Below, one piece after another: positions 4,092 to 49,345 of a stretch of 54,661 nucleotides of DNA. The translations under genes were made by a program, and so were the position numbers. The stretch is from Thermoanaerobaculum sp. Its GTDB lineage: Bacteria; Acidobacteriota; Thermoanaerobaculia; Multivoradales; UBA5704. The notes beneath the pieces are model-generated. The model did not search any database and had not been told where the DNA came from. It was given only the letters and a program-made list of their open reading frames with translations. The DNA lies in the NCBI GenBank assembly GCA_021154885.1, contig JAJKHS010000083.1, forward strand, positions 1 to 54,661. The letters run 5' to 3'. The first letter of the stretch is position 1, and every line of letters starts with the position of its first letter.

Positions 4092-5879
4092 CTACTTCGC
4101 CGTCTCCGCCACCTGCGACGGCCCCCCGGTCCCCTGGCCATAGTAGGCGAGGAGGCCGCGGACCAGGGCTTCGGCGACGTGCTGGCGGTAGGCGCGGGTC
4201 TGGAGGAGGGTGCGGTCCTGGTCGTTGTTCAGGTTGCAGACCTCCAACAGGATCTTCGCCGGGATGGAGTTGTAGCGCAGCACGGCCGGCACCCATTCCT
4301 TGTTGTCGCGGATGATCTTGTCGCGCACCGGGCTGAAGGGGTGGACGGGCAGGCCGCCGGTCTGGAAGGCGGCCACCACCTGCTTGGCCAGCTCGCGGGA
4401 GAGGCCCTCGCTCTGCACCCGCTGGTCGCGCGGGAAGGTGACGCGCGGGCTCTCCTGCACCTCTTTGCGCAGGGCATAGACCGGACCGTTCTTGCCGTAG
4501 CTCTCGTCGCGCATGTCGGCCGCCGGGATGTAGGCCATGGCGCCGCGCAGCGAGGGATGGAGGGAGTCGGCGTGGATGGAGAGGAAGACCACCTTCTGCG
4601 GGTCCTTGTCCGTCTCCACGGTCTTGCGGAACAGGCTGTTGGCCAGGTACCAGCGCAGGTTGACCCCGATCTTGGCGTCGGCGATGGGGTAAGGCGGCGT
4701 GGTCAGCACGGCGTGGCCGCGGGAGAACGGCAGCACGTCCATGTCCTGGATGCGGAAGTCGTCGCCGTCGCGGGTGGTGACCTCCACCCGGGCCGCGGTC
4801 TGGCTCTCCAGCACCCGCTTGACCCGCATCACGATGTCGTAGACGTAGAGGCTCTCCCAGACGCCGCCCTGGCTCGCGCCGGCGTCCAGCCCGCCGTGGC
4901 CCGCGTCGAGGATCAGGGTGATGCCGGCGAGGCCCCGGGCCTTGACCTGGTTGCTGAACTGGGAGCTGGCGCGCAGGCTCGCCTCGTACTCCTTGCGCTT
5001 GGGGTTGCCCTCAGGCAGGAATTCCGGCTGCAAAAGATCGAAGGGGATGCGCACCCGGTAGCCGACGGGGATGCTGGTGACGTCCTGGATACCGCTGCGG
5101 TGGGCGATCTGCAAGGCCAGGGCGTTGACGTCGGCGGCGAAGACGCGGCCGGTGAAGCGCACCACCACGGCGGAGTAGAGGGCCTCGTGCGGCCGCAGCC
5201 GGTAGATGGCGTACTCGCCGTCCTTGTCCACGCCGTAGTCGAGGGAGAACGGCCGCTCCGGCACCGGCAGGACGGAGCGGAAGGAAGGGAGCAGCAGCTC
5301 GGAGGGAATGGTCAGGTCCGTACCCTTGACGATCTCCTCGTCGTGCAGTTCGTTGTACTCGCGGATGGCGCGGAAGTTCTCTCCCGAGCCCGTGAACCAC
5401 TCGGCGACCCGCCAGAGGCTCTCCCGCTGCATGGGGCCCACGCCGCGCACCTGGTGATGCCAGCCCTCGGCCACGCCCTTGTCCTCGGCGAACAGCGCCT
5501 TCACGGCCTTGAGCTGCCAGTCCTTGGACAGCAGGCTGAAGGGGACGGCGTAGCGGATGCCGCCGAGGAGGTCCTTGGCGCCGCCGTTGGCCTCGGCCAC
5601 CTGCGGGGCCAAGCGGGAGTCGCCGCACAGCCGCCGGGCAAAGAGGGCGAGCCCCTCGCCGTGCTTCGGGATGGCCTCGACGAGGAGGCCGCGGTCTTCG
5701 GCAAGGGTGGCCACCACGCCGTCCTCCAAGGCGACACGGACGGTGCCGGACGTCACCGCGGGAGCCGCCAGAGACGACCGAGACGCGGGAGCCGCGGCGC
5801 AGGGCAGGGCGAGCAGGACTCCCAGCAGGAACAACCCTTCGGCGAGGACGGCGGCGCCGCTGCGGGGAATCGCGCGCAT
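4092..5879 (-). CDS. N-acetylmuramoyl-L-alanine amidase (Amidase_3) with N-terminal LysM-like region
   Basis: 595 residues with an N-terminal signal sequence (hydrophobic LAEGLFLLGVLLALPCAAAP). The central part has segments such as LWRVAEWFTGSGENFRAIRE and GTDLTIPSELL that look like LysM or LysM-like cell-wall-binding modules. The C-terminal domain is Amidase_3: LDAGHGG (zinc His), VWESLYVYDI (zinc Glu), FLSIHAD (second zinc His) and LLEVCNLNN (catalytic Glu). The enzyme would cut the lactyl-amide bond of peptidoglycan in the periplasm. The start is 5 bp after gatA, so it is probably in the gatC-gatA operon. Confidence 0.88.
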   Translation of the reverse strand: MRAIPRSGAAVLAEGLFLLGVLLALPCAAAPASRSSLAAPAVTSGTVRVALEDGVVATLAEDRGLLVEAIPKHGEGLALFARRLCGDSRLAPQVAEANGGAKDLLGGIRYAVPFSLLSKDWQLKAVKALFAEDKGVAEGWHHQVRGVGPMQRESLWRVAEWFTGSGENFRAIREYNELHDEEIVKGTDLTIPSELLLPSFRSVLPVPERPFSLDYGVDKDGEYAIYRLRPHEALYSAVVVRFTGRVFAADVNALALQIAHRSGIQDVTSIPVGYRVRIPFDLLQPEFLPEGNPKRKEYEASLRASSQFSNQVKARGLAGITLILDAGHGGLDAGASQGGVWESLYVYDIVMRVKRVLESQTAARVEVTTRDGDDFRIQDMDVLPFSRGHAVLTTPPYPIADAKIGVNLRWYLANSLFRKTVETDKDPQKVVFLSIHADSLHPSLRGAMAYIPAADMRDESYGKNGPVYALRKEVQESPRVTFPRDQRVQSEGLSRELAKQVVAAFQTGGLPVHPFSPVRDKIIRDNKEWVPAVLRYNSIPAKILLEVCNLNNDQDRTLLQTRAYRQHVAEALVRGLLAYYGQGTGGPSQVAETAK

Positions 5880-5884
5880 GGTTT

Positions 5885-7372
5885 TCAGCCGGCTTCGGCC
5901 CCCCGGAAGCTGGGCGCGACGGCGAAGCCCGCCGCGCGCTCGAAGGCCCGCGAAGCGCGGAACACGGTGGCCTCGCCGAAGGGACGGCCCATGATCTGGA
6001 GCGACAGCGGCAGGCCCTCGTCGTCGAGGCCCGAAGGCACGGCCACCGTGGGCAGCCCCACCAGGCTCGCCGGCGTGGTGAAGACGTCGGAGAGGTACAT
6101 GGCGAGCGGATCGTCCACCTTCTCGCCAAGGCGGAAGGCGGCCGTGGGCGTGGTGGGCGTCACCACCACGTCGGCCCGCTCGAAGGCCGTGGCAAGCTCC
6201 TGCCGCATGCGTTCGAGGACGCCCCGCGCCCGGCCGTAGTAGGCCTTGTAGTAGCCGGAGGAGAGGGCGAAGGTGCCGAGCATGATCCGGCGCTTGACCT
6301 CGGGGCCGAACCCCTCGCTGCGGCTGTCGAAGTAGAGGTCGATCAGGTTGTCAGCCTGCTCGGAGCGGTGGCCGTAGCGCACGCCGTCGAAGCGGGCGAG
6401 GTTGGCGCTCGCCTCGGAGGTGGCGATGACGTAGTAGATGGCCACGGCGGCGTCCAGGCTGGGCACCGAGACCTCCACCAGCTCGGCGCCGGCCGCGGCC
6501 AGCCGGTCGAGCGACTGCCGCCAGTTGCGGGCGGCGGCGCCGCTCAGGGCCGCGTCGCCGATCTCGCGGATGACGCCCACTTTGAGACCCGCGATCCCCC
6601 GGTCGATCTCCGCCAGGTAGTCCCCGACCGGCTCGGCGGCGCAGGTGGCGTCGTGCGGATCGGCCCCGGCGATGACCTCCAGGGCGAGGGCAGCGTCGCG
6701 CACGTTGCGGGCGATAGGTCCGATCTGGTCGGTCGACGAAGCGAAAGCCACCAGTCCGTAGCGGGAGACGCGGCCGTAGGTGGGCTTGACGCCCACCACG
6801 CCGCACAGTGCCGCGGGCTGGCGGATGGAGCCGCCGGTGTCCGAGCCGAACGCGAGCGGCACGCTGCCGGCGGCCACGGCCGCGGCGGGCCCGCCGCTGG
6901 AGCCGCCGGGCACGGCGCCCAGGTGCCAGGGGTTGCGGGTGCGCTGGAACGCCGAGTTCTCGCACGACGAGCCCATGGCGAACTCGTCCATGTTGTTCCG
7001 TCCCACGAGCACGGCGCCCGCGGCCAGCAGCCGCGCCACGGCCGTGGCCGTGTACGGGGCCACGTAGCCGGCGAGGATGCGCGAGGCGCAGGTGAGGGCG
7101 TGCCCTTCGAGGCTGAGGTTGTCCTTCAGGGCCACCGGCACGCCGGCGAGCCGCCCCGGGTCCTCCCCGGCTGCGAGCCGGCGGTCGATCTCCGCCGCCC
7201 GCTCCCGCGCCTCGTCCTCGAAGACCTCCAGGTAGGCCGCCACCAGGGGCTCCACCTTGGCGGTGCGGTCCAGGCACGACTCCAGGACCTCGGACGCCGA
7301 GACCTCACGGGCGCGCACCCGGCCGGCGATCTCCTCCACGGCGAGCTCCCAGAGCTCAGGCGACATCGTCAT
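5885..7372 (-). CDS. gatA: Asp/Glu-tRNA(Asn/Gln) amidotransferase subunit A
   Basis: 495 residues, normal length for GatA. The amidase signature is complete: VALKDNLS supplies the catalytic Lys, GGSSGGPAAAVAAG the cis-Ser region, and GSDTGGSIRQPAALCG the nucleophile Ser. GatA releases ammonia from Gln, which GatB uses to amidate mischarged Glu-tRNA(Gln) or Asp-tRNA(Asn). The start (ATG at 7372) overlaps the end of gatC by 17 bp, indicating translational coupling. gatB is not in the window. Confidence 0.96.
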   Translation of the reverse strand: MTMSPELWELAVEEIAGRVRAREVSASEVLESCLDRTAKVEPLVAAYLEVFEDEARERAAEIDRRLAAGEDPGRLAGVPVALKDNLSLEGHALTCASRILAGYVAPYTATAVARLLAAGAVLVGRNNMDEFAMGSSCENSAFQRTRNPWHLGAVPGGSSGGPAAAVAAGSVPLAFGSDTGGSIRQPAALCGVVGVKPTYGRVSRYGLVAFASSTDQIGPIARNVRDAALALEVIAGADPHDATCAAEPVGDYLAEIDRGIAGLKVGVIREIGDAALSGAAARNWRQSLDRLAAAGAELVEVSVPSLDAAVAIYYVIATSEASANLARFDGVRYGHRSEQADNLIDLYFDSRSEGFGPEVKRRIMLGTFALSSGYYKAYYGRARGVLERMRQELATAFERADVVVTPTTPTAAFRLGEKVDDPLAMYLSDVFTTPASLVGLPTVAVPSGLDDEGLPLSLQIMGRPFGEATVFRASRAFERAAGFAVAPSFRGAEAG

Positions 7373-9094: not shown

Positions 9095-10348
9095 GTGACC
9101 GCCCCGACCTTCCGCATCCTCTTGCAGCACCGGGCCGTGCGGGCCCTCGCCGCGGCCTGTGGCGAGACGGAGTGCCACCTGGTGGGAGGGTGCCTGCGCG
9201 ACCGCGCCCTGGGGCTGCCGAGCCACGACGTCGACGCCGTGGTGGCCGGCCGCGGCCGGGAGATCGCGGAGCGCCTGGCCGCGGCGCTGCCGGCCCGCCT
9301 CGTCCTGCTTGGCGGCAAGGACTTCGCGGCCTACCGGCTGGTGGGGCAGGACCTGACGCTCGACCTCTGGGACCGCGCCGGCACCACTCTCCTCGCCGAC
9401 CTCGCCCGCCGCGACTTCACCGTCAACTCCTTCGCCCTCGGCGTGCGGGACGGCCTCCTCGCCGATCCTTTCGGCGGCCTCGCGGATCTCGGGCGTCGCA
9501 TCCTGCGGGCCACCACGCCGGCGAGCTTCACGGGCGATCCCCTGCGGGTGCTGCGCCTCCCCCGGCTCAGCCTGCGCCTCCCGGGCTTCGCCGCCGATCC
9601 GCCGACCTTCCTGCTCGCCCGCGGCTCCTCCCCCCGCCTGGTGGACGTGGCAGCGGAGCGGGTGCGCGACGAGCTGGCCATCCTCTTCGAGCATCCCGAG
9701 GCCCACCGCGGGCTCGGCCTGCTGGTGGCCCTCGATCTTTATCCCGGTCTCTGGCTGGGCGCTCCCGGCGAGCCCGGCCGCCCGGGAGGCGCGGTGACCG
9801 AGCTGGAAGCGATCCCGGAACGCTGCCGCGAATTGCGGGAGCTCGATCCCGAGGCCGCCTCGCACGTGGAAGCCCGAGCCGCCCGGCTGGCCGCCACTTT
9901 CGCCCACCTGCCCGTCCGGGCCGGCCGCGGGTCGCGGGATTTCCTGGAGCTCTTCCGCGACGCGGGCTACCTCACCCGGCAGGCCGCCGCCGAGGTGGCC
10001 CTGCTGCTGGCGGAGGAGGAGATCCCGGAGGACGAGCTCGGCCGCCGACGGTTCCTCCACCGCACCGGCCGCCTCTGGGCGACCGTCGCCGTCTCGCTGG
10101 GAGCCCGGACGGCCGACGCCGCCCGCTGGCGCGCCGCGGTGCGTCCCCTGGTGGACCTCGCCCGGCGCGAGGGCGCCCTCCTGCTCGACCCGCCGCGGCT
10201 GATCACCGGCGAGGAGGTGCAGCGGATTCTGGGGATCGCCCCCGGACCCGAGGTCGGCCGCGCCCTGGCGGCGGTGCGTCAGGCGCAGGTCGACGGCCAG
10301 GTGCGGACGCGGGAGGAGGCGGTGGCGATGCTGAACCTCGGAGAGTGA
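9095..10348 (+). CDS. CCA tRNA nucleotidyltransferase / poly(A) polymerase family protein
   Basis: 417 residues, GTG start at 9095, only 22 bp from the divergent VWFA-like gene. The class II nucleotidyltransferase head is clear: GGCLRD (31-36), DVD (45-47) as metal-binding Asp residues, RRDFTVNS, and GDPLRVLR with the neck helix. The C-terminus is a diverged helical body. Expected role: adding or repairing the CCA end of tRNA. Some bacteria divide this job between A-adding and CC-adding enzymes, and poly(A) polymerase I has the same head, so exact specificity cannot be read from the sequence. Confidence 0.85.
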   Translation: MTAPTFRILLQHRAVRALAAACGETECHLVGGCLRDRALGLPSHDVDAVVAGRGREIAERLAAALPARLVLLGGKDFAAYRLVGQDLTLDLWDRAGTTLLADLARRDFTVNSFALGVRDGLLADPFGGLADLGRRILRATTPASFTGDPLRVLRLPRLSLRLPGFAADPPTFLLARGSSPRLVDVAAERVRDELAILFEHPEAHRGLGLLVALDLYPGLWLGAPGEPGRPGGAVTELEAIPERCRELRELDPEAASHVEARAARLAATFAHLPVRAGRGSRDFLELFRDAGYLTRQAAAEVALLLAEEEIPEDELGRRRFLHRTGRLWATVAVSLGARTADAARWRAAVRPLVDLARREGALLLDPPRLITGEEVQRILGIAPGPEVGRALAAVRQAQVDGQVRTREEAVAMLNLGE

Positions 10349-22940: not shown

Positions 22941-22998
22941 CTCGCGGGCACTACCAAGGTGGGAGCACGAGAGCCCCCGACCGCCAAAGGAGAAACAG
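22941..22998 (+). promoter_or_regulatory. conserved leader in front of RiPP precursor 1 (copy A)
   Basis: 58 nt ending at the ATG of precursor 1. It aligns at roughly 75% with the 60 nt before precursor 3 (23374-23433): CTCGC-GGCAC, a CC/GG mini-stem, TGGG-GC, AGCCCCC, then the AAAGGAGAAA ribosome-binding site. The G/C blocks could pair into a hairpin just before the site. This may be a true regulatory leader, or simply the unit that was duplicated. Confidence 0.5.
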
Positions 22999-23166
22999 AT
23001 GACCCAGAAGCCTGAGACGAAATCGAAAGCCCTGAGCCTCGAGGTCGAGGCCGTCGAAACGTACTGCAACCCGGGCTGCGGCTCGTCGACGACGAGCAAC
23101 CTCTGCACCTGCCCCATCCATCTCACCACGACCGGCAGCCTGTTCACGGCGCGGACCGTCAGCTAG
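22999..23166 (+). CDS. RiPP precursor peptide 1 (lanthipeptide/thiopeptide-like)
   Basis: 55 residues; AAAGGAG lies 6 nt before the ATG. The leader MTQKPETKSKALSLEVEAVE is charged and Cys-free and has LSLEVE, reminiscent of the FNLD-type box that LanB enzymes bind. The core begins around residue 21: TYCNPGCGSSTTSN, then LCTCPIHLTTTGSLFTARTVS, with four Cys (23, 27, 36, 38) and eleven or more Ser/Thr. Dense Ser/Thr plus Cys is what a LanB dehydratase system would act on. Three sister genes follow. The mature structure is unknown. Confidence 0.85.
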   Translation: MTQKPETKSKALSLEVEAVETYCNPGCGSSTTSNLCTCPIHLTTTGSLFTARTVS

Positions 23167-23180
23167 ACAAGGAGACAACC

Positions 23181-23348
23181 ATGACCCAGAAGCCCGAGAC
23201 GAAATCGAAAGCCCTGAACCTCGAGGTCGAGCAGCTCGAAGTGGTCTGCAATCCGGGCTGCGGCACGTCGACCACCAGCCACAAGTGCACCTGTCCCATC
23301 TCCGCCACCACGACCGGCAGCCTGTTCACGGCCCGGACGACCAACTAG
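23181..23348 (+). CDS. RiPP precursor peptide 2
   Basis: 55 residues, 14 nt after precursor 1, with its own AAGGAG site. Leader MTQKPETKSKALNLEVEQLE is nearly identical to that of precursor 1. Core VVCNPGCGTSTTSHKCTCP then ISATTTGSLFTARTTN keeps all four Cys (23, 27, 36, 38) and the LFTART block. Differences concentrate at the loop between the Cys pairs (SHK against SNL) and the last residues, the pattern expected of variant products made by shared enzymes. Confidence 0.85.
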   Translation: MTQKPETKSKALNLEVEQLEVVCNPGCGTSTTSHKCTCPISATTTGSLFTARTTN

Positions 23349-23373
23349 GCGTCCGTCTGGCTCGGGGGGCCTG

Positions 23374-23433
23374 CTCGCAGGCACCTTCGAGGATGGGGGC
23401 AACGCAGCCCCCCGATCGCGAAAGGAGAAAACC
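23374..23433 (+). promoter_or_regulatory. conserved leader in front of RiPP precursor 3 (copy B)
   Basis: 60 nt matching copy A at 22941-22998. In this copy the hairpin is perfect: GGGGGC-AACGCA-GCCCCC, followed by CGATCGCGAAAGGAGAAA. The paired bases are partly kept between copies (GGGAGC in A), giving weak support for an RNA structure that could set expression of the second precursor module. Confidence 0.5.
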
Positions 23434-23601
23434 ATGGCCCAGAAGCCCGAGACCAAGTCGAAAGCCCTGAACCTGGAAGTCGAGTCCCTCGAGACCTACT
23501 GCAACCCGGGCTGCGGCTCGTCGTCGACGGACCCGCGTTGCACCTGTCCCATCTCCGCCTCCACGACCGCCAGCCTGTTCACTGCCAGGACGGCCAGCTA
23601 G
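23434..23601 (+). CDS. RiPP precursor peptide 3
   Basis: 55 residues with AAAGGAG upstream. Leader MAQKPETKSKALNLEVESLE; core TYCNPGCGSSSTDPRCTCP then ISASTTASLFTARTAS. The four Cys positions (23, 27, 36, 38) and the C-terminal LFTART are kept. The loop now reads DPR, shared in style with precursor 4 (NPR). It heads the second module and is followed 20 nt later by precursor 4. Confidence 0.85.
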   Translation: MAQKPETKSKALNLEVESLETYCNPGCGSSSTDPRCTCPISASTTASLFTARTAS

Positions 23602-23621
23602 ACCAGGCAAGGGAGAGAAAG

Positions 23622-23774
23622 ATGATCAACCAGAAGATCGAAAACAAGCCGAGGGCTCTGGAGCTCGCGGTCGAGGAGCTGGAGTCCGCCTCCAACGCGG
23701 GCTGCAACTCGTCGTCGACGAACCCGCGCTGCACCTGTCCTCCCCCCCTGTTCGCGACGCGGACGGTCAAGTAA
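23622..23774 (+). CDS. RiPP precursor peptide 4 (divergent)
   Basis: 50 residues; GGGAGAG precedes the ATG. Leader MINQKIENKPRALELAVEEL is diverged but keeps the AL-L-VEELE pattern. Core ESASNAGCNSSSTNPRCTC then PPPLFATRTVK: the first Cys is replaced by Ser, leaving three (28, 37, 39), and the Thr-rich stretch before LFATRT is lost, shortening the core by five. It may be a second component of a two-peptide product or a decaying copy; the intact frame and ribosome-binding site argue for a working gene. Confidence 0.8.
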   Translation: MINQKIENKPRALELAVEELESASNAGCNSSSTNPRCTCPPPLFATRTVK

Positions 23775-23855
23775 CCGTCACCCCCCGGGCCGGCGGGCGA
23801 GGTGACAGCGAGCATCGCCGGCCCGGACCTGGCTCCTGATTGGAGGTCCCCTGCC

Positions 23856-24719
23856 TTGGAAGACCAGCTCTGCCTCTTCACCCTGCTCTACGCCCCGCGC
23901 GAGCAGCATGAGCGCATCCTCGCCGACTTCGTGACGCCGGTCGCGCGCGACGTCCGCGACGCCCCCGAGCTTCACTCCCTCTTCTTCGCCCGCTACAACG
24001 TGCCGAGCTGGCAGGTGCGGTTCCGCATCCTGGGCCGGCCCGACTGGGTCTCCGGCCCGGTCTTCGAGCGGGTCGACCGCGACCTCGTCCCGCTACGCGA
24101 GTCGGGTGCCGTCGAAGGGGTCGAGTACGCTCAGTACGACCGCGAGGTAGAGCGCTACGGCGGCGACGAGGGGATGGGCTTGGCCGAGAAGCTCTTCCTT
24201 CACGACTCGCTCGCCTGCCTCGACCTGATGGCGGCCGAGCGGCAGGGGCTGCTCGCCAAGACGCGGCGCGAATTCTCGCTGCTGATGACCGAGCGGCTCC
24301 TCGACCTGCTGGGTTTCGACCGCGAGCAGCGCCTCGCCTTCTATGCCTTCGGCCACCAGTGGACCCACGAGATGGGGACTTGGAAAGAGGCCGAGATCGA
24401 GACCATCGAAGCCAAGTACCAGGCGCTCAAGCCCGGTCTTCAGGACCTCTTCACCGGCGAGCAGAGCCAGGACCCCGAGACGCTCTGGGGGGGCGAGGAG
24501 CCGGCGCGGATCGCCGCCCGCTGGCAGGAGGCCAGCCGGCCGGTCGCCCGGGAGATCCGCGAGGCGCACGACGCCGGCCGAATCCAGCAGGACCTCGGCT
24601 ATCTCGCCTGGTCCTACGCCCACATGAGCTGCAACCGCCTGGGGATCGACCCCACGCCCGAGGCCCTGCTGCGCTACTTCATGCACCGCCTGATCGAGGA
24701 CGGCGGGGGGCCGGCCTGA
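23856..24719 (+). CDS. split LanB: elimination-domain protein (Lant_dehydr_C / thiopeptide-type)
   Basis: 287 residues from TTG 23856, chosen because GGAGG lies 9 nt before it; an in-frame GTG at 23802 would add 18 residues. The sequence matches the SpaB C-terminal or thiopeptide-type bacteriocin biosynthesis domain: an N-terminal WQVRFRILGR strand, then YDREVERYGGDEGMGLAEKLF with the HDS that follows, and a helical C-terminus (YAHMSCNRLGIDPTPEALLR). In LanB enzymes this domain removes glutamate from glutamylated Ser/Thr to give dehydroamino acids. Stand-alone homologues also include thiopeptide pyridine synthases, so a cycloaddition role is the main alternative. It sits 7 bp before the glutamylation protein. 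Confidence 0.85.
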   Translation: MEDQLCLFTLLYAPREQHERILADFVTPVARDVRDAPELHSLFFARYNVPSWQVRFRILGRPDWVSGPVFERVDRDLVPLRESGAVEGVEYAQYDREVERYGGDEGMGLAEKLFLHDSLACLDLMAAERQGLLAKTRREFSLLMTERLLDLLGFDREQRLAFYAFGHQWTHEMGTWKEAEIETIEAKYQALKPGLQDLFTGEQSQDPETLWGGEEPARIAARWQEASRPVAREIREAHDAGRIQQDLGYLAWSYAHMSCNRLGIDPTPEALLRYFMHRLIEDGGGPA

Positions 24720-24726
24720 ATCCTCT

Positions 24727-27318
24727 GTGACCAGGCAGCTCGTCCTCCTGCGCATCGCCGCGCTGCCTTTCGAGACGCTGGCGCCCCTGGCGGCCACGGA
24801 GGCCTTGGCGCGCCTCGCCGCCGCCCGGGAGCTCGAGCACCGTCTCGACGCCGAGGTGACGCGGCTCACCGACGATCTCCATGGCGTGGCGGGCGAGCCG
24901 CCCGGCGAGGGGGACCCGCGGGACCCCGAGGCCGCCCGCACCCGGCTGGCCATCATCACCCTGCGCCGCTCCCTCCACAACCGCCGGCGGGTCTCGCCGG
25001 CGCAGCTCGACGCCCTGCGCGACATCCTGCCGGCGGAGCTGTTCGCCGGGATCGGGGGTCACCTCGCCCGCCGCGCCGAGCTCGCCACCCTCCAGGCAGA
25101 CTTCGCCCGCGCCTACCGCGCCGACCTGCTGCGCGCCCGCCGCGCCCTGCTCGCCCTCGCCGGCCGCCCCGTGTTCAAGGAGGGGATGCGGCTGGTCAGC
25201 CGAGCTCTGCTCGACCGGCTCCAGGCCATGGCGGGGAAAGACCCCGGACGCTGGCGTCACGACGAGCGCCACGCCGCGGCCAAGCTCGCCGCCTACGCCG
25301 CCCGCTTCGCCTCCAAGACGAGCCCCAACTCGGTCTTCTGTGCCACGGCCCTGGCGTGGCTCCACGGCCACGAGGCCAGGGTCACGGGCGAGAACCGGCC
25401 GGCCAAGGTCGATGTCCTCCTCTCCGTGGCCGAAGCGCGCAAGGTCTCGGCCTGCCTGGGGGCCGACCGCGCCGCCTGGCCCGCCATCGTGCCGCGCCTC
25501 AACCCCACCCTGCGCCGCGAGGACGGAAGCTGGACCTTCTGGCGTCCCATCACCCCCCGCCGCGAGACCGACCTCGAGGTCCTCTCGCGCACCAAGGCGC
25601 AGCCGATTCTCAACCTTTTCCATGAAGAGGCCGCGAAGGGGCTCCTCACCCTCCCGGCCCTGCTCGCCGCCGTCGCCGAGCGCTACGAGATCGACGTCGA
25701 GGAGCTGACCCCCTTCTTCGAGCAACTGGTGGACAAGGGGTTCCTGATCGCCGAGATCGAGCCGCCCTACAACGCCCGCCGCCCCCTGGCCTTCGTGGCC
25801 GAGCGGATGCGCGCCGCCGGCATCGGCGACTGCGACGCCCCGTGGCTCACGGAGATCGAGGCGATCGAGCGGGACGTCGAAGCCCTCTCCAGCCTGACGC
25901 CGGAGGAGCGTATCCAAGATATGGATCGCGTCGAGACGCGCCTCGCGGCCCTCCCCCACGTCCAGCCCCTGAAAGGGGACGTCCTGTTCCGAGTGGACAC
26001 GGCCTCGGGCCTCGAGGTCACCGTGCCGGAGCGCGTCCGCGCCGACCTGGAGGTCCCGCTGCGCCGCTATATCCGGCTCTTCGCGGCCCTCTACCCCGAG
26101 CTGGCCTTCCGCCAGGCCTATGCGGGACGCTTTCTCTCGCGCTTCCCCGCCGATACCGACGTCCCCCTGCTCGACCTCTATCACGGTCTCTTCGAGCCCG
26201 AAGCGCAGGAGCGCCCCGACTCCTTCCCCCAGGCGCCGCCCGGCGAGGACGAAGCCGCCGCCGTGCTCAACCGGACGCGGGACCTCTTCGCCGCCCGCGC
26301 CCGGGCCGCGCTCACCGCCGGGGAGGAGGAGGTCGAGCTGACCGGGGAGGACTGGGAAGCCCTCGTGGGCGGCCTTCCGGAGCCCACCTGGTCGGCGGGG
26401 GCCCTCTTCCAGATCGCGGCCCGGGACGCGGGGGAGATCGCGGCCGGCCGCTACCGCATGACTTTGAACGCCCTCTTCGGACCCGGCATCGCCCTCTCCC
26501 GCTTCGCCCATCTCCTCGGTGGCCCTGAGCCAGACAACCCGGACAACCCTGTCACCCGCGAGGTGGCGCGGAGCTGGCAGCCGGTGGCGCGGGAAGGGGC
26601 GATCTTTGCCGAGGTCACCTACAACCACTTCGGCCGTAGCGCCAACGCCGGCCTGCGGCCAACCCTCTTCCGCCATGAGATCGAGCTGCTGGGCGAACGC
26701 GCCAATCCCGACGCCGAGGTGATTCCCCTGACCGAGCTGACCGTGCGCTGGGACGAGACGGCCGGCCGCTTCATGCTGCGCTGGGCTGCCCGCGGCGTCG
26801 AGGTCGTACCGCTCATCACCAGCGGCGTGAGCCCGGAGGGGTTCGTCTCCTTCCTGGTCGAAATCGGCCGCCAGGGTCTCCAGCCCCTCGCCTGGTTCCC
26901 CGGCTTCGACGTCCCGGGGATCGCGCGCTGGCCCCGCTTCACGAGCGGCCACCTCGTCCTCTTCCGCCGCCGCTGGGTCTTCGCTCCGGGCGAAGCGCCG
27001 GAGCCGCCCGCAGAGGGCACTGACCCGGAAGCCGCCGGCGCTCAATTCTTCGCCCGGGCTCAAGCCTGGCGCCGCACCCACGCCCTCCCCCGCCACGTCT
27101 TCCTCCACACCCCCGCCGAGCCCAAGCCCTTCTACGCCGACCTCGACTCCCCCCTCGCCGTCGACCTCCTCCGCCGCGCCCTTTCCCCCTCGGAGGAAGG
27201 CGCTCCCCCTCCCACCCTCCACGTGACCGAGATGCTCCCGGGACCGGATGAGATGTGGATTGGGGACGAGCGCGGGCAGTATGCGGCGGAGCTCCTGCTG
27301 CACTTGAGTGGACCGTGA
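24727..27318 (+). CDS. split LanB: glutamylation-domain dehydratase (Lant_dehydr_N)
   Basis: 863 residues, GTG start. The diagnostic Lant_dehydr_N motif is AARFASKTSPNSVF (191-204), close to the R-x-x-x-KTSPxSxF signature. Further N-domain blocks (RPVFKEGMRLVSRALLDRL, AELAFRQAYAGRFLSRF, VTYNHFGRSANAGLRP) fit too. It would use glutamyl-tRNA to glutamylate Ser/Thr of the precursor core. With the separate elimination protein just upstream it forms a split dehydratase of the TbtB/TbtC or pinensin style. The length is normal for an N-part that lacks SpaB_C. It ends 10 bp from the convergent M24 gene. Confidence 0.9.
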   Translation: MTRQLVLLRIAALPFETLAPLAATEALARLAAARELEHRLDAEVTRLTDDLHGVAGEPPGEGDPRDPEAARTRLAIITLRRSLHNRRRVSPAQLDALRDILPAELFAGIGGHLARRAELATLQADFARAYRADLLRARRALLALAGRPVFKEGMRLVSRALLDRLQAMAGKDPGRWRHDERHAAAKLAAYAARFASKTSPNSVFCATALAWLHGHEARVTGENRPAKVDVLLSVAEARKVSACLGADRAAWPAIVPRLNPTLRREDGSWTFWRPITPRRETDLEVLSRTKAQPILNLFHEEAAKGLLTLPALLAAVAERYEIDVEELTPFFEQLVDKGFLIAEIEPPYNARRPLAFVAERMRAAGIGDCDAPWLTEIEAIERDVEALSSLTPEERIQDMDRVETRLAALPHVQPLKGDVLFRVDTASGLEVTVPERVRADLEVPLRRYIRLFAALYPELAFRQAYAGRFLSRFPADTDVPLLDLYHGLFEPEAQERPDSFPQAPPGEDEAAAVLNRTRDLFAARARAALTAGEEEVELTGEDWEALVGGLPEPTWSAGALFQIAARDAGEIAAGRYRMTLNALFGPGIALSRFAHLLGGPEPDNPDNPVTREVARSWQPVAREGAIFAEVTYNHFGRSANAGLRPTLFRHEIELLGERANPDAEVIPLTELTVRWDETAGRFMLRWAARGVEVVPLITSGVSPEGFVSFLVEIGRQGLQPLAWFPGFDVPGIARWPRFTSGHLVLFRRRWVFAPGEAPEPPAEGTDPEAAGAQFFARAQAWRRTHALPRHVFLHTPAEPKPFYADLDSPLAVDLLRRALSPSEEGAPPPTLHVTEMLPGPDEMWIGDERGQYAAELLLHLSGP

Positions 27319-32178: not shown

Positions 32179-34446
32179 CTACACCTCCGCCGCCTGCAAC
32201 CGCTCCTTCTCCACCTGGGCGGCCACCAGGCTGGCGTAGACGCCGTCGCGGGCGATCAGCTCGTCGTGGCGCCCCTGCTCGACGAGGCGGCCGTCATCCA
32301 TGACCAGGATCAGATCGGCGTGGCGGATGGTGCTCAGGCGGTGGGCGATGACGATGCGGGTGGTGCGCAGGCCTTCGAGCTCGCGCTGGATCTCCCGCTC
32401 GGTGCGGGTGTCGAGGGCGCTCGTCGCCTCGTCCAGGAGGAGGATGGCCGGCCGGTGGACCAGGGCGCGGGCCAGGGCCAGGCGCTGGCGCTGGCCGCCG
32501 GAGAGGGAGGCGCCGCCGTCCGCCAGGATGGAGTCGTAGCCCATGGGCATGGCCAGGATGTCGTCATGGATGTGGGCCAGCTTCGCCGCCTCCACCGCCC
32601 GCGACAGGGGGAGCGTCGGGTCCGACAGGGTGACGTTCGCCCGGATGCTGTTGCCGAAGAGGTAAGGATGCTGGGGGACCACCCCCACCTGCCGGCGCAC
32701 CGAGCGCAGGTCCAGCTCCGAGAGGTCGATGCCGTCGAACAGGATCCGCCCCTCCGTCGGCGTGTAGAGGCCCACGAGCAGCGAGGCCAGCGTCGACTTC
32801 CCCGCCCCGGAGCGGCCCACCAGGGCGACGAAGCGGCCGGCCGGGATGTCGATCGAGACCTCCTGGACGGCCCACGGCGCGAACGGCCCGTAGCGGAAGC
32901 TCACGTTCTCCAGGCGGATGTTGCCCTTGAGGCGCGGCGCCGGGTTGACCGTGGACGGGTCCTGCTCGCGCGGCGTCTCCAGCACGTCCTCGATGCGATC
33001 GAGATAGCTGCCGAGGAGTTGGAACTGGAAGGCGTTGGTGATCAGGGTTGAAAGGGGCGTCAGGAAGCCGGCGGCGAGGGCGTTCATGGCCAGCATCGTG
33101 CCCAGCGTCAGATGCCCCTGGAGCACCTGCACGGCGCCCCAGACGAGGATCACCAGCGGCGAGGCCGTGCCGAGGGCCGACAGCGTCGAATCGACGAACG
33201 CCTGCAGCCGGCCGCGGGACAGAGAGACGTTGAGCACGTCCACAAACAGGTGCGACCACTGCTCCACCGACCGGTGCTCGGCGCCTGAGGCCTTGAGCGT
33301 CTCGATGCCCGCCAGCAGGTTCACCTGGTAGCTCTGCGACTTCGCCTCGGTCTGCAGCGAGCGGGACATCAGGTCGCGGGTGCGCTTGCGAGTGAAGAGG
33401 AAGAGGCCGATCCGCAGGGCGCCCAACACCAGCACCAGCACTCCCATGGTCGGGCTGGCCACGAAAAGGAGCACCAGGTAGACGGTGACCAGCAGGCCGT
33501 CCAGCACTCCGGACAGGGCACCCGAGGTGAGGATCTCGCGCACCGTGGAGTTGGAGGACAGCCGCATGATGAGGTCGCCCGCCGAGCGCTGCTGGAAGAA
33601 GGCGTATGGCAGGTCGACGAGATGATCGAGAAATTCCAGGGTCATCCGCGCGTCGAGATGGGTGCGCATGTAGAGGAGGAGGTACGAGCGCAGCAGCGAC
33701 GAGAGGAAGCTGAAGCCCACGATGACCGCGAGGCCGGCGCCCAGGACGGTGAGGAGTTGCACGTCTCCCTGGGGAATCACCCGGTCCACCAGCACGCCGA
33801 TCAGGATCGGCATGGCGAGCGCGAAGAGCTGCAGCATGGCCGAGGTCACCAGCACCCGCTGGAGGACGCCGGACTGCTCCTTGAGCAGGCGGATGAAGCG
33901 GTCCAATCGCCGCGGCTGCCCCTCCTGCGGCTCGAAGTCCTCGCCGGTCTCGAACATCAGGGCGACGCCGGTGAACGAGCGGCCCAGCTCCTCGCGGCTG
34001 ACCTTGCGCCGGCCGCCTCCCGGGTCCACGATCTCGGCGCCGTCGCGGGTCATCCGCTCAAAAACGAGGAAGTGGTTGAACTGCCAGTGGAGGATCGAGC
34101 CCGGCGGCAGGAAGCGCAGGTCGTCGACCTCCTCCACCTTGACGCCCCGGCCGCGCAGCCCGAAGATCCGCCCGGCCGAGAGGAGGGCGAGGGCATCGGC
34201 GCCGTCGCGGCCGAAGCCGGTGATCTTGCGCACCTCGTCCAGCCGCAGATGCTTGCCGTGATAGGCGAGCACCATGGTGAGACTGGCGGCGCCGCAGTCG
34301 CTGGGCGTGGTCTGCTGGACGTAGGGCACGCGCCGGCCGCGGCGTGAGAAGGTGATGCGCTGGAGCGCCGGGAAACGCTCGTGGAGCGGGGTTGAAGGCG
34401 GGGCCGGCGACGGCGGCGGGGCCTGGGCCGGCGGCGTCTCAGGCAT
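32179..34446 (-). CDS. peptidase-containing ABC exporter (C39 peptidase, PCAT)
   Basis: 755 residues. The N-terminal C39 peptidase has QQTTPSDCGAASL with catalytic Cys51, His in LHWQFNHFLVFE and Asp in EIVDPGG. A six-helix permease follows (from LVTSAMLQLFALAMPILIGV), then an ATPase with Walker A GRSGAGKST, signature LSGGQRQRLALARAL and Walker B AILLLDEATSALD. Such exporters cut the leader of a peptide after a double-Gly-type site and pump the core out, usually with an HlyD-type adaptor, which is the next gene (8-bp overlap). The four RiPP precursors 9-11 kb away lack a GG site before the core, so the cargo is not certain. Confidence 0.92.
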   Translation of the reverse strand: MPETPPAQAPPPSPAPPSTPLHERFPALQRITFSRRGRRVPYVQQTTPSDCGAASLTMVLAYHGKHLRLDEVRKITGFGRDGADALALLSAGRIFGLRGRGVKVEEVDDLRFLPPGSILHWQFNHFLVFERMTRDGAEIVDPGGGRRKVSREELGRSFTGVALMFETGEDFEPQEGQPRRLDRFIRLLKEQSGVLQRVLVTSAMLQLFALAMPILIGVLVDRVIPQGDVQLLTVLGAGLAVIVGFSFLSSLLRSYLLLYMRTHLDARMTLEFLDHLVDLPYAFFQQRSAGDLIMRLSSNSTVREILTSGALSGVLDGLLVTVYLVLLFVASPTMGVLVLVLGALRIGLFLFTRKRTRDLMSRSLQTEAKSQSYQVNLLAGIETLKASGAEHRSVEQWSHLFVDVLNVSLSRGRLQAFVDSTLSALGTASPLVILVWGAVQVLQGHLTLGTMLAMNALAAGFLTPLSTLITNAFQFQLLGSYLDRIEDVLETPREQDPSTVNPAPRLKGNIRLENVSFRYGPFAPWAVQEVSIDIPAGRFVALVGRSGAGKSTLASLLVGLYTPTEGRILFDGIDLSELDLRSVRRQVGVVPQHPYLFGNSIRANVTLSDPTLPLSRAVEAAKLAHIHDDILAMPMGYDSILADGGASLSGGQRQRLALARALVHRPAILLLDEATSALDTRTEREIQRELEGLRTTRIVIAHRLSTIRHADLILVMDDGRLVEQGRHDELIARDGVYASLVAAQVEKERLQAAEV

Positions 34447-36340
34447 CGCCGGTCCCCTCTTGCGGCTGGAACAGGGCCTTCAGGGCCGGGACCAGGGCCA
34501 CCAGCACGCGCTCGGAGCGGATGCGCACCTCGGCCGTCCCCCACATGCCGTCGTGGAAGCGGCGCACCCGGCCGTCGGACTCGAAGGTATTGGAGGCGAG
34601 GCGGGCCGTGACCCGCACCACCGGTCCGGTGAGCTGCACGGCGTCGGCGATCTCGTCGCCCAGGGCGCGGCGGGCCTCGGCCGGCCCCACCACCTCGTCG
34701 CCCACCGACTCCACCACCAGGTGCTGGTAGGCGTAGCGGTAGCCCTGGACCTCCAGGCGCAGGGGCATGCCGGGCTTGAGCAGCGGGCGGAACTCGCCGG
34801 GCAGCAGAGCGATGACCTGGGGGTGCTCCTGGCCGCGGACCAGGGAGAGGAGCGACTGGCCAGGGGCGATGTGCTGGCCCGGACGCACACGGATGTCGCT
34901 CACCACCCCGGCCGCCGGGGACCGCACCTCGCGCTCGGCGAGGTTGGCCCGCGCCAGCTCGCGCTGCGCCCGCAGGGACAGGAGGCTCTGCTCGGCGCTG
35001 CGGTCGGCAGGATCGCGCAACCGGTTGATGAGCTGCAGCTCGAATTCATGGTCGATGCGATTCAGCTCGGCGGCCTCCCGCGCGCCGTAGAAGCGCACCA
35101 GCAGCCGGCCGGCCTCCACCGTCTGGCCGGTCGTCACCCCCACGTCGGTGACCGTACCGTCGGCGGTGGCGGTGAGGTCGGTGCGGCCGCCCAGGCGCAC
35201 CACCGCCGGACCCGAGGCGTACTCCCGCACCTTGGCGAGGATGCAGAACAGCACGCTGGCCACCATCACGGCGAGCAGCAGCCGGTAGGTCCAGCGCATC
35301 CAGCCGGGATCGACGCGCAGCAGATCCCCCTCGGAGCGCAGCCCCACCTGGTGGTGCTCCACCGCCTCCTCGCGGAACAGGCCGGGCGCCGGCAGTCCCG
35401 AGGTGTTCTTCTCCGCCGCCGCCAGCCGGAGTTGGGCGAAGGCGGGGGCCGCCGCCTCGGCGAGCCGGGTCAGGTGGTCCAGGTCTTCGTCGCCGAACGG
35501 CTTCCCCTCGGGAGGGCGCACGGCGGCCAGCACCGCGAGGACGGCGCCGTCCGAGCCCAGCACCGGCACGGCGGCGAAGCGCTCCTCGCCCGTCGCGTGC
35601 GGGTCGTCTGCATCGCGGTCGAAGCGCGGGTCGCGGCCGATGCGGTCCACGGCCAGCGGCTGGCCGGTGCGGACGACGAAGCTCACCAGACCCACGGCCG
35701 CGGTCTCCCGCCGCTCCTCCTGGTCCTCGCCGCCCATGCCGCCGTCCCACAGGGTCTCGCTCCCCAGCTCGTAGATCAGGCAGTAGCCGCGCTCGGCCTC
35801 CCCGAGATCCTCCACCGCCTCGGCCGCGGCCCGCGCCACGGCGGACGGCCGGCTCTGGGTGGCGAGAACCTGGGTATGGCTCAGGAGACGGCGGGAGAAG
35901 ACGATCCGCTGCCGCTCCTCCTCGCCCCCCTGAAGGGCGGCGGCGCGCCAGCGGCCGGCGGCGCCCCGCAGCAGGGCGATCAGGTCGGCGGACGGCACCG
36001 GCTCCTGACTGAGATAGAAGAGACGGTCGCGGTCGATCAGGTCCTGGAAGAGGGTGGGATCGGGTCCTCCCGCGAGGACGAGGTTCACCCGCTCCGGGCC
36101 GGCGGGGATCGCCTCGGCGTCCTCCACCAGGCGCCGCGCCCGCTCGCCGGAGATCGCGGCCCCCACGGCCAGCACGGCCACCGGCTGGGCTTTGAGCAGG
36201 CGCAGAGCCTCCCCTTCCGAGTCTGCCACCAGCAGGTGCAGCTCGGGCCCGAGCAGGCGCAGGCAGGCTTCCACACTTTCGCCGTCGAAGCCGGCCAGCA
36301 GCGCGATGGGGGTTGAATCTCGGATCTCGGACCTCCTCAA
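34439..36340 (-). CDS. HlyD-family adaptor fused to receiver-like and GAF domains
   Basis: 633 residues if the TTG at 36340 is the start (its TTGA overlaps the stop of the DUF3179 gene); a TTG at 36397 is also in frame. Layout: a CheY-like fold lacking the phospho-acceptor Asp (about 10-120), a GAF domain (about 145-300; ERGYCLIYELGSETLW, PLAVDRIGRDPRFD, AAVPVLGSDGAVLAVLAAVR), one transmembrane helix (WTYRLLLAVMVASVLFCILA), then a HlyD/biotinyl-lipoyl and beta-barrel adaptor (ATADGTVTDVGVTTGQTVEA; SPAAGVVSDIRVRPGQHIAP). The adaptor half serves the neighbouring C39 exporter. A cytoplasmic GAF sensor on an export adaptor is unusual and suggests that export is gated by a ligand. Confidence 0.85.
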   Translation of the reverse strand: MRRSEIRDSTPIALLAGFDGESVEACLRLLGPELHLLVADSEGEALRLLKAQPVAVLAVGAAISGERARRLVEDAEAIPAGPERVNLVLAGGPDPTLFQDLIDRDRLFYLSQEPVPSADLIALLRGAAGRWRAAALQGGEEERQRIVFSRRLLSHTQVLATQSRPSAVARAAAEAVEDLGEAERGYCLIYELGSETLWDGGMGGEDQEERRETAAVGLVSFVVRTGQPLAVDRIGRDPRFDRDADDPHATGEERFAAVPVLGSDGAVLAVLAAVRPPEGKPFGDEDLDHLTRLAEAAAPAFAQLRLAAAEKNTSGLPAPGLFREEAVEHHQVGLRSEGDLLRVDPGWMRWTYRLLLAVMVASVLFCILAKVREYASGPAVVRLGGRTDLTATADGTVTDVGVTTGQTVEAGRLLVRFYGAREAAELNRIDHEFELQLINRLRDPADRSAEQSLLSLRAQRELARANLAEREVRSPAAGVVSDIRVRPGQHIAPGQSLLSLVRGQEHPQVIALLPGEFRPLLKPGMPLRLEVQGYRYAYQHLVVESVGDEVVGPAEARRALGDEIADAVQLTGPVVRVTARLASNTFESDGRVRRFHDGMWGTAEVRIRSERVLVALVPALKALFQPQEGTGDA

Positions 36341-37566
36341 CGGGACCGGAGCGCGTACACCGTCGTCCTTGGATTGTACGCCTTCCAATCGAACCAATAG
36401 TCCTTCAGAACGTAGACTTTGGGCAGCTTCTTCCCCGCCAGGGGACCGCTCACCGCCTCCCCCGCGAAGCTCCAGGCGCTCCCCGTCCCGGCGTCGACGA
36501 GCACCGGCGGCGAGCTTGCCGGCTTGAGGAAGAGCTGCAGCTCCCCCCCGTCCACCCGTCTCTCAAACGCGCGCACCGAGCGGCCGTCCTCACCCACGAT
36601 CAGGATTACGGGGACTCCCCCCAACGCGTCCTGGACCGGATTCTGCTGCCGCAGCGCGGCGAAAGGGTAGGCCCGGGCCGACTCCCCCAGCCGGATCCCC
36701 GCCACCAGCTCGCGGGGAGAGAGAGGATCGCCCTTCGCCGGCGCCACCACCACCGGCAGGCGGGCGACGTCCGCCTCCCAGCTCTCCGACTCCAGCCGCC
36801 CGGGAACGCGGTCCGGCCGCAGCACCCGGCCGCCGGGGTGCTCCCGTTTCCAGTCCGCGAAGGCGATCTCGTCGTGGAACACGAGGTCGAGCCGTCGACC
36901 CTTGAGCGGCCCCTGCACAGCCTCGCCGGTCACCTGCTGCCACCAGGATCCGGTCTCCTCGTCAGCCATGAGGAAGTTCTGATTGTTGATCCCCGCCAGA
37001 TGGAACCGGAGCCGCCGGCCGTCCACTTCTGCTCTCCACACCAGACCGGTGTGACAGAGCGTTCAGTAGGTGGCGGCGACTGGAACGCCGCCGACCTCGT
37101 CCATCACGATGTGGTGATAGGCGATCTGGCGCACCGGCCAGGCCACGGCCTCGCCGTTGCGCTCGACGCCCAGAACCAGGTCCCCGTCCTTCACCCAGTC
37201 GGTCTCCACCGCCCGGGCATAGCGGGGATTCGCCAGGGGCGCGAACATCTTCTCGAAGATATTCGTTCGCGCCACCCAGACCGCTCCGGCCAGCGGCACC
37301 AGGGCCAGGACCAGCAACGCCCGGCGCCACCACCGGGCCCCGCGCCAGAGGCCGGCGACGAGCGCCGCCCCGGCCACCAGCGCCAGGACCGTGGCCCAGG
37401 GAGCCAGGCGCCGACAGGCGTAGGCGAGGGAGACTCCCGCCGGGGTCTGCGGCTCGAACGGCCGGATCTCCCACAGGGGGATCGCGACCAGGGCCACCGT
37501 GGCCACGACGAGGAAAAGCAGGCCGAGGGCGGCGAAACGGCGAGTGAAGGGGTGAGTGGAGGGCAT
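36337..37566 (-). CDS. DUF3179 membrane protein, selenoprotein candidate (in-frame TGA = Sec168)
   Basis: 409 residues if TGA at 37063-37065 is read as selenocysteine. The start ATG 37566 has AAGGAG 8 nt upstream. Several transmembrane helices come first (RFAALGLLFLVVATVALVAI and two more), then DUF3179. The reading frame is open on both sides of the TGA: GGVPVAATY, then TGA, then TLCHTGLVWRAEVDGR. In the family this place reads TYCxLC, so TGA replaces the first Cys of a CxxC motif, giving UxxC. A SECIS-type hairpin follows directly (37031-37060). Similar length and continuing family similarity (NQNFLM, ETGSWWQQVTGEAVQGPLKG) argue against a plain nonsense mutation. Function unknown; a redox role is likely. 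Confidence 0.8.
37031..37060 (-). promoter_or_regulatory. bacterial SECIS element after in-frame TGA
   Basis: Hairpin GCTCT-GT-CACACC, loop GGTCT, GGTGTG-G-AGAGC. Both stem parts are fully complementary, with one small internal bulge. The loop GGUCU is the same as in the E. coli fdhF SECIS that SelB reads, and it begins 16 nt after the TGA, within the usual range for bacterial elements. Confidence 0.8.
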
Positions 37567-49000: not shown

Positions 49001-49345
49001 GGATTCCTCCGCCTGCGCGACGTCTACGACCTCGACCTTGCGGCCGACCTCGTGGTGCTCTCCGGCTGCCAGACGGCCCTGGGCAAGGAGATCCGCGGCG
49101 AAGGGCTCCTCGGGCTCACCCGCGGCTTCCTCTACGCGGGAGCGCCGCGGGTGGTGGCGAGCCTGTGGTGGATCGACGACCGGGCGACGGCCGCGCTCAT
49201 GTCGGCGTTCTACCGCGGCCTGTGGAGCGAAGGCCTGCGCCCCGCCGCTGCGCTGCGCAAGGCCCGCCTGTCTCTCGCGCGCCAGCATCGTTTCCGCGAT
49301 CCGTCCTACTGGGGAGCCTTCGTCCTCCAGGGGGATTGGCGATGA
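46028..49345 (+). CDS. TPR-CHAT protein (caspase-like peptidase with TPR array)
   Basis: 1105 residues. A signal-like N-terminal hydrophobic stretch (VVLVFALAAAGMGTLA) is followed by a beta domain to about 135 (LVVDVRGADGASLAAIDSPL). A long TPR array follows, with repeated ALNNLGVAYMALGE-type units from about 180 to 570, then a CHAT domain (about 820-1105) with the dyad His965 (HFATHG) and Cys1014 (VLSGCQTALG), both present. CHAT proteases are caspase relatives; TPR-CHAT proteins include effectors activated by partner binding. Two small genes follow on the same strand, and a sigma/anti-sigma pair converges. The substrate is unknown. Confidence 0.9.
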   Translation: MRRCQRRADLVVLVFALAAAGMGTLASPDPLQLSPGTARERAFAAGDSQVFNAELAASRSYLLAVEQRGIHLVVDVRGADGASLAAIDSPLDRWGIEAVLLRPASAGSYQIEVRAGTKGVGPGRCEIRLEEMTESSRERITALAAMTEAGTILRREPTGSLDKVLAALQEARGHFQAAGDRPGEAEAVAALAAVTHRLGKQSQAVNLYREAVSSWQELSRPEREMVAWNDLGLTLWERSELPAADEALARALDFAHRLGLPYYEAVVRSNQCLVLHSRSGVQPALACYREALALFHQLGERKDEAAVLNNLGFASFSLGEPQPAEESYRQALEIRRAIGDRAGEAQALNNLAVLYRSLGEIDEALKAYGEAREILATLDDRRQEATTLNNLGVAYMALGEAERSRLYLTQALALRRTVEDRRGEIVTLNNLGRLESRSGAADKAISFHSQALEVARATSDTRNEGISRSYLGEAMVGVGRSAEALAELDKALALQRQTGDRPNEATTLGHKGEALAASGQAAEALPLFEQALLGLRAAGDRINEAATLFTRARTLRDRGELGDLENAASDAEAAIAALESLRTRLGNPELRAAFLGSRSKVYELRVDVLMRLAAAHPGQGFDRAAFEASEEARARSLLDVLRESGAAIRSGIDPTLAARQRDLERRLALKADRRQLLLGRGKGDQAESKTLEIESEQIRAELDNLDAEIRRKNPRYADLTHPEAARTGEIQALLDSGTLLLEYSLGRERGYLWAVDAKGLRSFILPGREKIESAARAFHQAVSTPGGGDNRSRIGRTLSRMLLKPVAGELGDRRLAIVPDGALGYIPFDVLPEPGQSNPILARHEVVELPSASVLAAERRELARRLPAGKLAIVLADPVFQPDDPRVARSPQKVPAAAPTASDQRSGGSGSLLLSRLRFSRQEAQVIASLAPPGAVTTRLDFAADRDLVLSGGLRDFRYIHFATHGVFDAERPELSGLALSRVDAAGKPREGFLRLRDVYDLDLAADLVVLSGCQTALGKEIRGEGLLGLTRGFLYAGAPRVVASLWWIDDRATAALMSAFYRGLWSEGLRPAAALRKARLSLARQHRFRDPSYWGAFVLQGDWR

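Follow-up and report, generated by a model that had tools for sequence, protein, structure and literature searches.

A putative RiPP gene cluster with a split LanB-type dehydratase and near-invariant precursor cores in Acidobacteria

Introduction

Among ribosomally synthesized and post-translationally modified peptides (RiPPs), split LanB dehydratases have been reported to be frequent in thiopeptides and uncommon in lanthipeptides (PMC9011353), and pyritides are described as using split LanB-like enzymes (PMC9247985). Here we describe a locus of this kind in a stretch of 54,661 nucleotides (the window) that represents contig JAJKHS010000083.1 of the Thermoanaerobaculum sp. assembly GCA_021154885.1. 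Four small tandem genes (22999-23774) are followed by a PF14028 protein (elimination, hereafter C) and a PF04738 protein (glutamylation, hereafter N). A first-pass annotation made from the letters of the window had proposed a RiPP cluster with a split LanB, which is borne out by the domains, by a profile of the N family, and by the same enzymes and precursors in relatives. We read the locus, with a probability of roughly two in three, as a RiPP cluster from an acidobacterial family that appears not to have been described, in which dehydration is split between two proteins and closure proceeds without a dedicated LanC. The annotation had noticed neither the absence of a cyclase nor the wider family nor the precursors that lie away from the enzymes. 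No description of this cluster family was found among the titles and abstract openings listed in literature searches whose coverage left out most subscription journals.

Results

Four precursor genes and two enzyme genes

The genome of the window is denoted G000 and its contig G000:C83, and other genomes and contigs are labelled likewise. The small frames comprise 55, 55, 55, and 50 codons (stop excluded), each directly behind a ribosome-binding site of the AAGGAGA or AGGGAGA type, and have relatives in G002, a genome of the same genus, in agreement with the four precursor genes of 50-55 codons first proposed (Table 1). The leader ([KR]-A-L-[SNE]-L-[EA]-V-E) and the core (GC-x-[ST]-S-[ST]-T-xxx-CTCP) occur in all four as originally described; the C-terminal LFTART, which had been ascribed to every precursor, ends precursors 1-3 only, precursor 4 ending in LFATRT. 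Precursor 4 further differs from the others in its shorter tail and in a Ser at the position of their Cys. None of the four matches NCBIfam.

G002 encodes two precursors, which are 72 and 62% identical to window precursor 1. Pooled over six between-species pairs (precursors 1-3 against the two of G002, precursor 4 left out), the proportion of synonymous differences (pS) is 0.48 versus 0.216 for nonsynonymous differences (pN). The pattern expected under purifying selection, on which the first-pass annotation had made its proposal depend, is thus seen in the pooled comparison, with w of single pairs ranging from 0.16 to 0.71, so that constraint is not strong in every pair.

Window C matches PF14028 (E 5.7e-43) and, in NCBIfam, TIGR03891 (thiopeptide-type); window N matches PF04738 (E 1.7e-68) and has no match in NCBIfam. 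The two are separate proteins encoded 7 bp apart, as first annotated, and their G002 counterparts are 79% (C) and 73% (N) identical. The C gene appears more likely to start at the TTG at 23856, behind GGAGG, than at the GTG at 23802, since the frame of the G002 relative begins at the same TTG.

Table 1. Features of the gene cluster in the window
Feature	Coordinates	Strand	Basis and remarks
Precursor 1, 55 aa	22999..23166	+	frame, ribosome-binding site, relatives
Precursor 2, 55 aa	23181..23348	+	frame, ribosome-binding site, relatives
Precursor 3, 55 aa	23434..23601	+	frame, ribosome-binding site, relatives
Precursor 4, 50 aa, shorter tail, Ser for first Cys	23622..23774	+	frame, ribosome-binding site, relatives; inside a longer TTG frame in the open reading frame list
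C protein, predicted stand-alone glutamate-elimination enzyme	23856..24719	+	PF14028, TIGR03891; TTG start likely, GTG 23802 possible
N protein, predicted stand-alone glutamylation enzyme, presumably Glu-tRNA-dependent	24727..27318	+	PF04738; family profile

A cluster family in two classes of Acidobacteria

We surveyed 396 genomes of the phylum, scoring two N candidates and at most 17 precursor candidates per genome. N matches at E <= 0.001 occur in 25 genomes, and in seven the best match reaches E <= 2.2e-126, the next genome following at 2.5e-25. Apart from G000, the close-N genomes are six members of a single further class, in which N at E <= 1e-30 occurs in 6 of 41 genomes; the cluster family spans two classes of one phylum. 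The N-bearing set (G000, G213, G232, G256, G272, G314, and G403, plus G002) comprises eight genomes with 10 N genes, and these N genes form a tight clade. None of 18 plasmid records covers 80% of N, and no match was found in viral contigs. Close C proteins (E < 1e-150) were found in the window's order only in G000 and G002 among 72 genomes (next match 8.3e-27).

C adjoins N at 9 of the 10 N loci, and precursors of this same family lie beside nine of the 10 N genes, which answers the concern raised at first that the enzymes of relatives might act on another precursor. The exception is the N of G314:C14, which stands alone; G314:C40, conversely, encodes two precursors and three C proteins but lacks N, a distribution suggestive of action in trans.

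A single pattern covers all 25 full-length precursors: L.L[EA][VI][EQD]..E, 6-8 residues, C, 2-3 residues, S[ST]T, three residues, and CTC. This can be abbreviated as a leader like LxLEVExxE and a core C-x(2-3)-S-[ST]-T-x3-C-T-C. Each of the 25 has GGAG at most 20 bases upstream, and 23, counted by eye, have a Gly at most two residues before the first core Cys. The leader motif is separated from this Cys by six residues in 12 precursors; four positions ahead of the Cys these have Thr (6), Ser (1), or Cys (5), so that a small ring or a disulfide could form. That position is not constant in the remaining precursors.

A precursor profile built from G000 and G002 alone and run on 5069 stop-to-stop frames of 19 chosen loci retrieved 26 precursor frames at E <= 1.4e-6, including a truncated one from G001, and the next frame scored 0.36. 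In the phylum survey, a 20-row profile found precursors at E <= 1.4e-16 in seven genomes, identical to the seven with close N, and two further genomes match no better than at 7.3e-4 and 8.7e-4. Five new precursors came from this survey (G256:C11, C18, and C20; G314:C16 and C149), all off the N contigs. The one on G256:C20 adjoins two C proteins; the 12-13 kb fetched around each of the other four yielded neither a C nor an N match at E <= 1e-3. In G256 and G314, a single enzyme set seems to act on the products of precursor genes dispersed across the genome. Within the window's own class, strong precursor matches are confined to 3 of 148 genomes, all members of the genus, and six others match at 4.5e-4 to 9.6e-3. 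A scan of named genomes with two strict patterns, which missed the second class, matched solely QHVW01000176.1, the G002 contig, named "Acidobacteria bacterium isolate gp7 AA5".

Glutamylation and elimination proteins

The best solved-structure matches of a ten-row N profile are 6ec7 (E 2.6e-26), which we take to be TbtB, and the goadsporin protein 9jhq (E 1.6e-15), presumably GodF; the single window N sequence matched nothing in solved structures below E 0.3. Y190, R193, K197, T198, S199, and P200 are invariant in all 10 N proteins and presumably correspond to NisB Y80/R83/R87/T89, an equivalence based on motif spacing.

In C, the NisB residues R784, R786, R826, and H961 correspond to R54, R56, R99, and H255 (counted from 23859), all of which are kept. 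In NisB, H961A abolished dehydration and R784A left it nearly normal (PMC4341554), and roles in the elimination site have been assigned to two Arg, one Arg, and the His (PMC9011353). All four residues are present in 10 of 18 aligned C proteins, and each of the eight N-bearing genomes has at least one such C. The AlphaFold2 model of window C (pLDDT, the predicted local distance difference test, 93.3) aligns in VIA-align with MadB at Z 23.3 (root mean square deviation 3.0, 262 residues aligned), NisB at 22.7 (2.7, 227), and MibB at 21.9 (3.4, 266), and with [4+2] enzymes at a lower Z of 19.1-20.6, elimination and [4+2] enzymes having a common fold in structure comparison. Likewise, a profile of non-degenerate C proteins matches MadB at 3.5e-16, and both MadB and MibB far ahead of 7cww (3.1e-7).

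LanC and YcaO at the loci

None of the 10 N contigs, G000:C83 included, has a LANC_like match, and none was found anywhere in G213, G272, and G314, which are N-bearing and 96-100% complete. Matches elsewhere number 16 in G000, 10 in G002, two pieces in G403, and one each in G256 and G232, the last in a 1111-codon frame that is probably a LanM. In contrast, LANC_like lies within 5 kb on the same contig for all five frames taken as full-length LanB (G000:C75, G000:C1, G001:C502, G002:C655, and G256:C22). The criterion for these was a PF14028 match in an open frame of at least 768 codons; G256:C20b, with a frame of 686, was classed as stand-alone. YcaO (PF02624) was found in none of the eight N-bearing genomes and, among nine genomes searched, only in G001, a genome in which the search covered C but not N and yielded no stand-alone C.

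The locus therefore lacks what defines two known classes, as no LANC_like is on the N contigs and no YcaO was found: the predicted glutamylation and elimination parts of a class I lanthipeptide pathway are there without its LanC, and TIGR03891/PF14028 and a TbtB-like N are there without the azole-making YcaO of thiopeptides. The window contig also has no second PF14028 protein that could act as the [4+2] cyclase of a pyritide, its single match having intact elimination residues; some relatives carry a degenerate second PF14028. The earlier suggestion that the product class may be new gains weight from the missing LanC and YcaO.

G000 is rich in lanthipeptide-type enzymes overall, with four PF14028 matches besides its LANC_like matches. 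On G000:C81 (L090), a frame at 9436-9657 with a GG-type leader and a core NCSCPPGST...NCSCTGKG, picked out by eye, is a candidate RiPP precursor 3.3 kb from a PF14028 protein (5388-6155).

Deviating and degenerate C paralogues

Eight of the 18 aligned C proteins deviate at the four NisB-type residues, and five of these we label degenerate. All four residues are changed in G403:C294b and G213:C30, three in G314:C2b, and two in G232:C14; G256:C20a, in which R826 alone is changed, groups with G232:C14 and G314:C2b in the tree. There, all of the five except G403:C294b come together at 94/91. The other deviating proteins are G314:C2a and C40a, with one change each, and C40c, with two in a doubtful alignment. 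All five degenerate C proteins adjoin precursors with CTCxC and with a Thr, Ser, or Asn preceding the first Cys, a pattern recognised post hoc. A C with all four residues stands beside N at six of the nine N loci that have an adjacent C (6 of all 10).

A profile of four degenerate C proteins has its best match in 7cww (E 9.9e-7; chain named TsrE, entry title TsrL), to which we attribute a [4+2] role, a match that is not specific to the degenerate type because the non-degenerate profile also reaches 7cww. The model of the degenerate type, from a four-row alignment (pLDDT 88.1), gives Z of 22.6 for MadB, 21.7 for MibB, 21.4 for TbtD, and 20.1 for NisB, values too close to indicate function. As to function, the degenerate proteins could be inactive helpers, cyclases, or lyases with a different stereochemical outcome, such as SptBb has been proposed to be (PMC9011353). 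At L145 (3166-6100 of G314:C40), three PF14028 proteins lie in a row without an N; one precursor separates the second from the third, and another follows the third at about 0.9 kb.

Borders and neighbouring genes

The unit consists of precursors, C, and N, since the gene upstream in G002 and G001 is unlike that of the window. An M50 peptidase gene upstream in the window is unlikely to belong to the cluster, as a different gene lies 5' of the precursors in both; in G001 this is, by eye, the same gene as in G002, and the contig ends within the first precursor. M24, thioredoxin, and RibF genes occur together in G001, G002, and G003, and M50 is absent from the stretches fetched there (about 1 kb on that side in G002), so an empty site did not serve to place the left border. 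An attenuator hairpin between precursors and enzymes was rejected, folding being no better than in shuffled sequences (z -0.83 in G000 and -0.62 in G002).

On the minus strand, 32179-36397 encodes an ABC exporter with a C39 peptidase (NHLP-like, below the cut-off) and then a GAF and HlyD protein, a possible bacteriocin exporter. The ABC protein (32179-34446) lies 5 kb off, and its sole blastp match at nine other loci is a 300-aa ATPase at L096 (31%); we did not retain it as a dedicated exporter, and it is an unproven candidate for exporting the cluster product. A methyltransferase adjoins three related clusters (L091 3506-4258, Methyltransf_25; L093 936-1688, 80.8% identical; L146 2941-3708, similar by eye) and has no counterpart among the immediate neighbours of the window cluster; it was dropped as a member. 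Elsewhere in the window are a 1105-aa protein with a CHAT protease domain and TPR repeats (46028-49345, plus strand) and an Acido-Lenti-1 RNA (RF01687, 50535-50580, plus strand; 41.6 bits, above the gathering score).

Discussion

The likely course of maturation begins with N, which would bind the leader (LxLEVExxE) and esterify core Ser and Thr with glutamate from Glu-tRNA. C would then eliminate the glutamate, leaving dehydroalanine (Dha) and dehydrobutyrine (Dhb) in the SSTT segment; the Thr of CTC and residues of the tail may be dehydrated as well. Dehydration of the conserved Ser and Thr by N and C is the best-supported step. The cysteines may react with Dha and Dhb or pair as disulfides, no dedicated LanC taking part. 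Fixed distances from S-x-T to the CTC cysteines suggest defined crosslinks, no family-wide cyclase having been seen, and closure would most likely be spontaneous, favoured by the fixed S-x-T-x3-C-T-C spacing. The peptide may be cut close to the Gly preceding the first core Cys, and export may rely on proteins encoded elsewhere.

Several points weigh against this reading. Spontaneous closure is an assumption, and the chemistry as a whole is deduced from sequence. The 16 LANC_like matches elsewhere in G000 would permit a cyclase acting in trans, and the absence of LanC counts for less where the contig with N is short (four of the ten measure 12.7 to 15.3 kb) or the genome incomplete (G002 82%, G403 75%). 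Co-occurrence of N and precursors is partly circular, as 14 of the 20 rows of the survey profile came from loci reached via N or C, and no more than 2 and 17 candidates per genome were scored. The sole adjacent C is degenerate at G213:C30 and G232:C14, and both adjacent C proteins deviate at G314:C2, so that elimination there must come from another locus; the degenerate PF14028 paralogues could themselves be unrecognised cyclases. An ordinary class I lanthipeptide whose rings are closed in trans by another LanC of G000 is nonetheless unlikely. Some of the 16 matches lie in frames of 446 to 616 codons and could be stand-alone LanCs, and a lanthionine could form in that part of the 12-precursor subset where the residue four before the first Cys is Thr or Ser; yet G213, G272, and G314 have precursors, N, and intact C with no LANC_like, and the N contigs, all without LANC_like, contrast with the LANC_like near every frame taken as full-length LanB.

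The enzymes could also have been misjudged. N might resemble peptide aminoacyl-tRNA ligases, which extend peptide C termini with amino acids (PMC11962472), so that an amino acid would be added and no dehydration would follow. We regard this as improbable, given that every N-bearing genome has a four-residue C, beside N at 6 of 10 loci, that the best structures of the N profile are labelled dehydratase or goadsporin protein, and that the conserved part of the precursors is an internal Ser/Thr/Cys segment and not the C terminus. Slightly less probable still is a pyritide- or thiopeptide-like product of [4+2] cycloaddition by a PF14028 protein. It draws on the TbtB-like N profile, the fold shared by elimination and [4+2] enzymes, and the five degenerate paralogues with the 7cww match of four of them, but the sole C of the window keeps all four residues and is modelled nearer to MadB, NisB, and MibB than to [4+2] enzymes, non-degenerate C proteins match 7cww too and MadB and MibB far better, YcaO is missing, and the cores are Cys-rich, unlike those of MroA displayed in PMC9247985. 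That the precursors are chance frames, for which their small size and nothing more speaks, has a negligible probability and is contradicted by conservation in two classes, pN below pS, the separation by the two-species profile, and the fit of all 25 to one pattern.

We thus favour a RiPP cluster with split dehydration and closure without a dedicated LanC. A broader and more tentative proposal, which we think rather unlikely to hold in full, is a new RiPP class of the phylum, in which a split dehydratase acts in trans on scattered precursors with near-invariant cores, crosslinks form without LanC, YcaO, or a known cyclase, and, in part of the family, the degenerate paralogues beside CTCxC-type precursors have turned into new crosslinking enzymes. 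The finished molecule of this soil acidobacterium may be a new type of natural product, as relatives in the phylum have the same nearly fixed core and no known ring-closing gene lies beside it. With neither YcaO nor an adjoining LanC, the family is a testable case of dehydration that possibly ends in crosslinks without a known cyclase. The core spacing is identical in all 25 precursors, from two classes of a little-studied phylum, and a near-invariant core in scattered genes hints at a constant target or role and not at diversifying selection.

Compared with described systems, the split dehydratases of thiopeptides (TbtB, 6ec7) and goadsporin (9jhq) are similar in their separate N, which the N profile matches best, and in a TIGR03891 C; they differ from the family described here in that the latter has no YcaO (eight genomes), no second PF14028 on the window contig, and another core. 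Prochlorosins are made by a class II enzyme and have a hypervariable core, whereas the core of the window family is nearly fixed. They resemble the apparent situation in G256 and G314 in that one enzyme set serves scattered precursor genes (PMC10783134). Pyritides (MroB/MroC/MroD) are likewise YcaO-independent, have a split LanB-like pair, and have a leader with an LDLAVDEE stretch; the window contig lacks a MroD-like second PF14028, and the MroA cores shown are without Cys (PMC9247985). In SapT and pinensin, glutamylation and elimination reside on separate proteins, as they would here (PMC9011353, PMC7268733). SapT has a LanC (SptC) and a divergent lyase without the His (PMC9011353); no LanC adjoins the window cluster, whose lyase keeps the His.

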